A DNA stretch of 47,895 nt from a virus: IMG/VR virus record IMGVR_UViG_3300025109_000013, positions 1 through 47,895 of that record, one strand, 5' to 3'. Under the pieces are notes generated by a model. The model ran no database searches. It was not told where the DNA came from and saw only the letters and a program-made list of their open reading frames with translations. Below are positions 44,291-44,305 of this stretch, piece after piece. The position numbers and the translations under genes were made by a program. Within the stretch, counting starts at the first letter, position 1, and each line of letters starts with the position of its first letter.

Positions 44291-44305
44291 TGGCATGAGT
44301 CTTGC
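44291..44305 (+). promoter_or_regulatory. sigma-54 (RpoN) promoter P3
   Basis: TGGCATG-AGTC-TTGC, then A, matches the RpoN consensus except T for C at the sixth base. GG (44292-44293) and GC (44304-44305) have exact spacing. The predicted start is near 44317, reading toward the next small genes. Confidence 0.72.

Follow-up and report, generated by a model that had tools for sequence, protein, structure and literature searches.

A predicted sigma-54-type promoter, P3, upstream of rightward replication-block genes in an uncultivated tailed phage

Gene blocks and the front gap

The window analysed here is the whole of the virus record IMGVR_UViG_3300025109_000013 (positions 1-47,895; 47,895 bases). 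Its leftward genes occupy 13.4-42.1 kb, with the terminase, major head protein and endolysin among them, and its rightward genes lie at 0.2-13.1 kb and 43.3-47.6 kb, a set that holds an SNF2-type helicase, a PD-(D/E)XK exonuclease and a primase-helicase. A handful of relatives came from searching with the terminase and head proteins, and four of them contain the gap before the rightward genes, these being G001 (contigs L006/L028; terminase 83% identical in amino acids to that of the window), G004 (L025), G005 (L026) and G006 (L027). Few further relatives were obtained via the helicase, the small genes or the MCP, and no prophage or host relatives of the terminase were found in bacterial genomes. 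In G004, the two ends of the window are bridged, with the equivalent of 46.3 kb followed by 2.1 kb and then by the helicase and primase, and hence the stretch from 42.3 kb to the end, together with positions 1 to 13.1 kb, appears to make up a single rightward block, about 18 kb long. This block starts at a large divergent gap (42146-43272) and goes on beyond a second gap (44250-44640). By our own gene list, about 5% of the window is free of genes, and its two largest gene-free gaps contain all three of the sites termed here P1, P2 and P3. The features of the first, or front, gap and of the genes that follow it are these:

42304-42319, + strand: P1, a perfect consensus site, TGGCACGGATCTTGCA (consensus and matrix)
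42356-42373, no strand: palindrome TGCGAAAACTTTTTCACA, some 160 bp before the predicted start of P2 and a candidate activator site
42376-42393, no strand: palindrome TGCGTAAAACTTTTCGCA, second copy
42438-42455, no strand: palindrome TGTGAAAAGTTTTACACA, third copy, some 79 bp before the predicted start of P2
42499-42514, + strand: P2, TGGCACGGGTCCTGCA (consensus and matrix)
43273-44249, + strand: first small-gene group, between P2 and P3 (ORF list)

The three copies of the TGYGWAAANNTTTWCRCA palindrome are the only ones in the window and all lie some 79-160 bp before the predicted start of P2, with 0.14 copies expected at two or fewer mismatches for a pattern that was itself drawn from these copies. 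Activator (enhancer) sites of sigma-54 promoters are usually found 80-200 bp upstream, and the palindromes are thus candidate activator sites, though they are equally good candidates for binding a repressor. Downstream, about 750 gene-free bases (42515-43272) separate P2 from the first gene. The only part of this P2 leader clearly common to G001 is the 17-mer AGACCTCCGGGTCCGTG, the rest not aligning; the 17-mer matches G001 and four other contigs, and the one of these examined, L017, has no sign of a shared leader. At the opposite side of the front gap, close to where the first leftward gene starts, we observed an alternating CG tract, CGCGCGCGCG (42041-42058), which also occurs at the same place in the front gaps of all four relatives, shortened in G005, and possibly belongs to the leftward promoter.

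The P3 site and its leader

Between the stop codon at 44249 and the ATG at 44641 lies the second gap, 391 bases (44250-44640) without a plausible gene, which bears out the gene-free status assigned to it in the first-pass annotation. Its features, along with the genes downstream, are as follows:

44263-44290, + strand: 12-bp stem-loop directly upstream of P3, without a T-run (-19.8 kcal/mol, z -2.4)
44291-44306, + strand: P3, a sigma-54-type -24/-12 site, TGGCATG-AGTC-TTGCA (TGGCATGAGTCTTGCA) (consensus, matrix and retention in G001)
44317, + strand: predicted P3 transcription start, 12 bases past the C of the GC (from the -24/-12 geometry)
44317-44640, + strand: predicted untranslated P3 leader, about 324 nt (no plausible gene)
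44382-44394, + strand: IHF-consensus match TATCAATAACTTA in the P3 leader (consensus search)
44398-44424, no strand: quasi-palindrome 1 of the P3 leader, of the GATANNCCAGGTT-N-AACCTGGNNTATC type (sequence comparison)
44486-44512, no strand: quasi-palindrome 2 of the P3 leader (sequence comparison)
44641-47563, + strand: second small-gene group, the proposed target of P3 (ORF list and G001 homologues)

In P3, the GG (44292-44293) and the GC (44304-44305) are separated by 10 bases, the canonical interval, and the spacing claimed in the first-pass annotation is therefore correct. Moreover, the surrounding letters agree with the flanking consensus TGGCAC/T-G...TTGCA/T better than chance would have it. 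The site lies in non-coding DNA upstream of same-strand genes starting at 44641 (ORFs 44641-44817, 44886-45257, 45361-45771, 45768-45977, 45974-46240, 46237-46623 and onward), and P1, P2 and P3 all point toward the rightward replication-gene block, on that block's strand. No sigma-70-like promoter was found on either strand between 41.9 and 44.7 kb.

For scoring, we used an approximate sigma-54 weight matrix drawn from general knowledge of the Barrios-type consensus, which does not rank the annotated promoters of Pseudomonas phage YuA highly and so cannot count as calibrated on phage promoters. Across the 48 kb, both strands, the top three sites were P1 (19.9), P3 (18.9) and P2 (17.9), the next scoring 14.2. 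In first-order Markov sequence, 0.03 sites scoring at least as high as P3 are expected per 48 kb, and for the two gaps together (1518 nt, + strand) the expectation of sites scoring at least 17.8 is 0.0006. The pattern common to the three sites (TGGCAYGRRTCYTGCA) has exactly three matches in the window, all on the + strand, and its reversed control has none. With a looser consensus allowing two mismatches, there is no enrichment (15 found, 14.6 expected), and the weight thus rests on the near-perfect sites. Given these low expected counts, chance is a poor explanation for P1-P3, and the argument against chance made in the first-pass annotation, there from placement and strand, has been borne out. 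The three sites also have in common two spacer letters, a T at position 10 and a C at position 11, which sigma-54 does not need.

The strong stem-loop that had been described next to P3 is indeed there, its 12 pairs ending one base before the site. As a canonical intrinsic terminator it can be ruled out, since it has no T-run and the terminator search lists none there. The overall fold of the P3 leader is ordinary (z -1.57), and a large structured RNA was rejected for the P2 and P3 leaders alike (folding z of only -1.3 and -1.6). A known RNA was likewise rejected for the gaps, one tRNA being the sole Rfam match at gathering level in the window, and at E<=5 nothing convincing appeared in the gaps. 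The IHF-consensus match is the sole one in the window, where about 1.5 are expected by simple base frequencies, and the two quasi-palindromes stand at +94 and +182 from the predicted start. These elements may represent an operator, a downstream enhancer or something else. Just past P3 there is also a single copy of CTTGACATCTC, related to tandem TTGACATNNNNTTGACATCTC-type repeats, 11 bp apart, that occur in the front gap of relatives (L026, reversed, at about 8156-8325, with three copies in G005; L028 at about 4830; L027 at about 9120).

Conservation of the gap in relatives

Comparison of the same gap in relatives, which had been proposed along with the site, revealed that the GG and GC elements are kept in G001, the nearest relative having the gap. 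Its equivalent of P3, TGGCACGGGTATTGCA at 23888-23903, scores 19.9, the best of the G001 record, and 13 of its 16 letters are the same as in P3. The differences fall at positions 6 (T/C), 8 (A/G) and 11 (free), all of them changes that the -24/-12 consensus allows, and the flanks of the site have largely diverged between the two genomes. As in the window, the G001 site stands about 105 nt before the same palindrome pair, and homologues of window ORFs 45974-46240 and 46237-46623 exist in G001. Upstream, it comes after a homologue (41% identity) of the first small gene of the window (43273-43608), and window genes 43605-44249 have no place between that gene and the site, from which it follows that the kept unit is P3 with its leader rather than P3 with its upstream neighbour. 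Another strong-looking site (18.5) sits within G001 coding sequence and is presumably accidental.

Farther out, G004 has no P3 equivalent, though its front gap contains two weaker sites, CGGCATGGTTCTTGCA (16.3) and CGGTATGATTCTTGCA (12.8), each of which is half of a palindrome of about 28 bp. We noticed that both of these palindromes, GCAAGAANCATGCC-GGYATGNTTCTTGC (L025 6354-6448), have each half in the GG-N10-GC layout, so that the sigma-54-like sites face both ways. By the matrix, the gaps of G005 and G006 contain no good sigma-54 site. The P3 element thus persists in the closest relative and has been replaced or lost in more distant ones.

The quasi-palindromes of the P3 leader belong to a 27-bp repeat, GATANNCCAGGTT-N-AACCTGGNNTATC, often followed by TATCGCCTAAG-N4-TGGAATNACT, that occurs in one to five copies in the leader of rightward genes and is common to the window, G001, G004, G006 and phage contig L100, for which no similarity to the window could be detected at the nucleotide or protein level. 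Its copies outside the window are at these positions:

L028: 5995 and 6082 (approximate)
L025: 7836, 7865 and 7935
L027: 9992
L100: 11142

The sequence of each half-site is conserved, and in several copies the pairing that an RNA hairpin would need is disrupted, which makes a DNA-binding site likelier than an RNA structure. This palindromic repeat is new and likely a protein-binding site, or else a leader element, and as it is also present in genomes with no sigma-54 site nearby it is not simply part of a promoter. Across 369 genomes from the class to which a gammaproteobacterial MAG belongs, no host operator matching the leader palindrome was found.

Near-consensus Fur boxes (GATAATGATAATCATTATC) were found in the same kind of intergenic control gap, one with a single mismatch in G001 (22658) and two with two mismatches each in G004 (18486 and 18517, equal to about 6487-6535 of L025), the expectation in both genomes being near zero. 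By eye, L100 also has such boxes at about 10630-10735, and the window has none. These boxes are suggestive, though not proof, of control by host iron status. Pho, NtrC, FNR and CRP sites were not above chance.

Readings of the P3 site and their implications

Taken together, we regard P3 as probably a sigma-54 (-24/-12) promoter read by host RpoN, forming with P1 and P2 a set of three that would feed the rightward replication-gene block of a tailed phage. In likeness to bacterial sigma-54 (RpoN) promoters, it has GG and GC 10 bases apart, a near-complete TGGCACG-N4-TTGCA, an intergenic position and same-strand genes downstream. Unlike them, it is located on a phage genome, no activator-type palindrome is recognised upstream of it, and its possible operator and IHF sites lie downstream. 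The promoter reading of the first-pass annotation is thus partly supported. Spacing, consensus match, position, strand, non-randomness and retention in G001 all favour it, but it remains one made from the consensus, G005 and G006 are without the site, and G004 has weaker sites, in its front gap only.

Among other explanations, P1-P3 could be bound, as operators or half-operators, by a DNA-binding protein of the phage or the host that has the specificity GGCAYGRNTCTTGC; they would then be repressor or activator sites of the early block, unrelated to sigma-54. Such a protein would account for the letters shared inside the spacer and for G004, in which the motif forms near-perfect inverted repeats, GCAAGAATCATGCC-GGCATGGTTCTTGC, in two copies. 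We nonetheless consider this unlikely, given that the window and G001 copies are single, with no mirror half, that the kept letters are exactly GG-N10-GC plus the known -24/-12 consensus, that the changes between the two genomes fall where sigma-54 tolerates them, and that no alternative promoter is seen in the gaps.

A motif that is repeated, intergenic, confined to one strand and provided with common spacer letters could also mark a promoter class for a phage-modified or phage-specific polymerase or sigma factor, its -24/-12 likeness being incidental. That likeness would then be a coincidence, and no RNA polymerase or sigma-factor family was found among the 57 window proteins (best 25 of 47 matched PHROG families; a 2454-aa protein was scanned against PHROGs only), which leaves this a very improbable account. 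We give just as little credence to P3 as a chance match in a gene-free gap or a functionless, decayed duplicate of P1 or P2. The lack of conservation at this position in G004, G005 and G006 and the strong accidental site in G001 coding DNA count in its favour, but the very small numbers of equally good sites expected, in the whole window and in the two gaps, speak against it. So does the fact that G001 has retained the site, equally far from the palindromes, where most of the flanking sequence has diverged.

If P3 is indeed a sigma-54 promoter, host E-sigma54 would bind its GG and GC elements as a closed complex. To open DNA, sigma-54 polymerase needs an AAA+ activator. The PF00158 search and the family search revealed no enhancer-binding protein among the window's own genes, and therefore a host activator would be required. 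An AAA/MCM signal was ruled out as a phage-encoded sigma-54 activator, for it belongs to the primase-helicase. The enhancer-binding ATPase, most likely the host's because none was found in the window, would open the complex when its signal is present. Transcription would then start near 44317, read the leader of about 324 nt with its two quasi-palindromic sites (candidate operator or enhancer) and run into the second small-gene group, and the stem-loop before P3 would set this unit apart from the P2 transcript. As for the host, assignment by the phage tRNA-Leu was uninformative, as the 53 contigs that contain the exact 40-mer come from widely differing phyla.

As a rule, phages begin with the housekeeping sigma factor because it is present at all times, and phage dependence on host sigma-54 is described as rare, phage YuA being the one case we found. 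YuA is stated, in a passage of the literature (PMC5053324), to be strictly dependent on host sigma-54. In its GenBank record, three -24/-12 promoters are annotated, each within the structural-gene region and highly active when measured, and the early promoters are of the -35/-10 type. Like YuA, the window phage appears, by its consensus sites, to use host sigma-54. In contrast, its sites precede the replication block and match the consensus far better than the -24/-12 promoters of YuA do, and no site in its structural genes scores near P1-P3 with the matrix. No close kinship with YuA was seen among the best listed matches of the terminase and primase to the phage collection, which reach at most about 26% identity and do not include YuA. 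Provided that they function, the near-perfect -24/-12 sites before the replication block would set the window phage apart from YuA.

The sigma-54 start signal serves bacterial stress and nutrient genes, and the three near-perfect sites suggest that genes of this virus are switched on via the host's own stress-response machinery. If P1-P3 work, the whole replication block would depend on a sigma factor that stays silent unless an ATP-driven activator acts on it, and lysis would thereby be tied to a host signal, e.g. nitrogen limitation or motility. More tentatively, and with considerable doubt, we propose an uncultivated phage lineage whose replication block is wired to nutrient-stress regulators of the host, these being sigma-54 with a host activator in this phage and G001, and Fur, for iron, through boxes in the same gap in both G001 and G004. 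Were this true, infection would go ahead only, or most quickly, while the host is in a certain physiological state.
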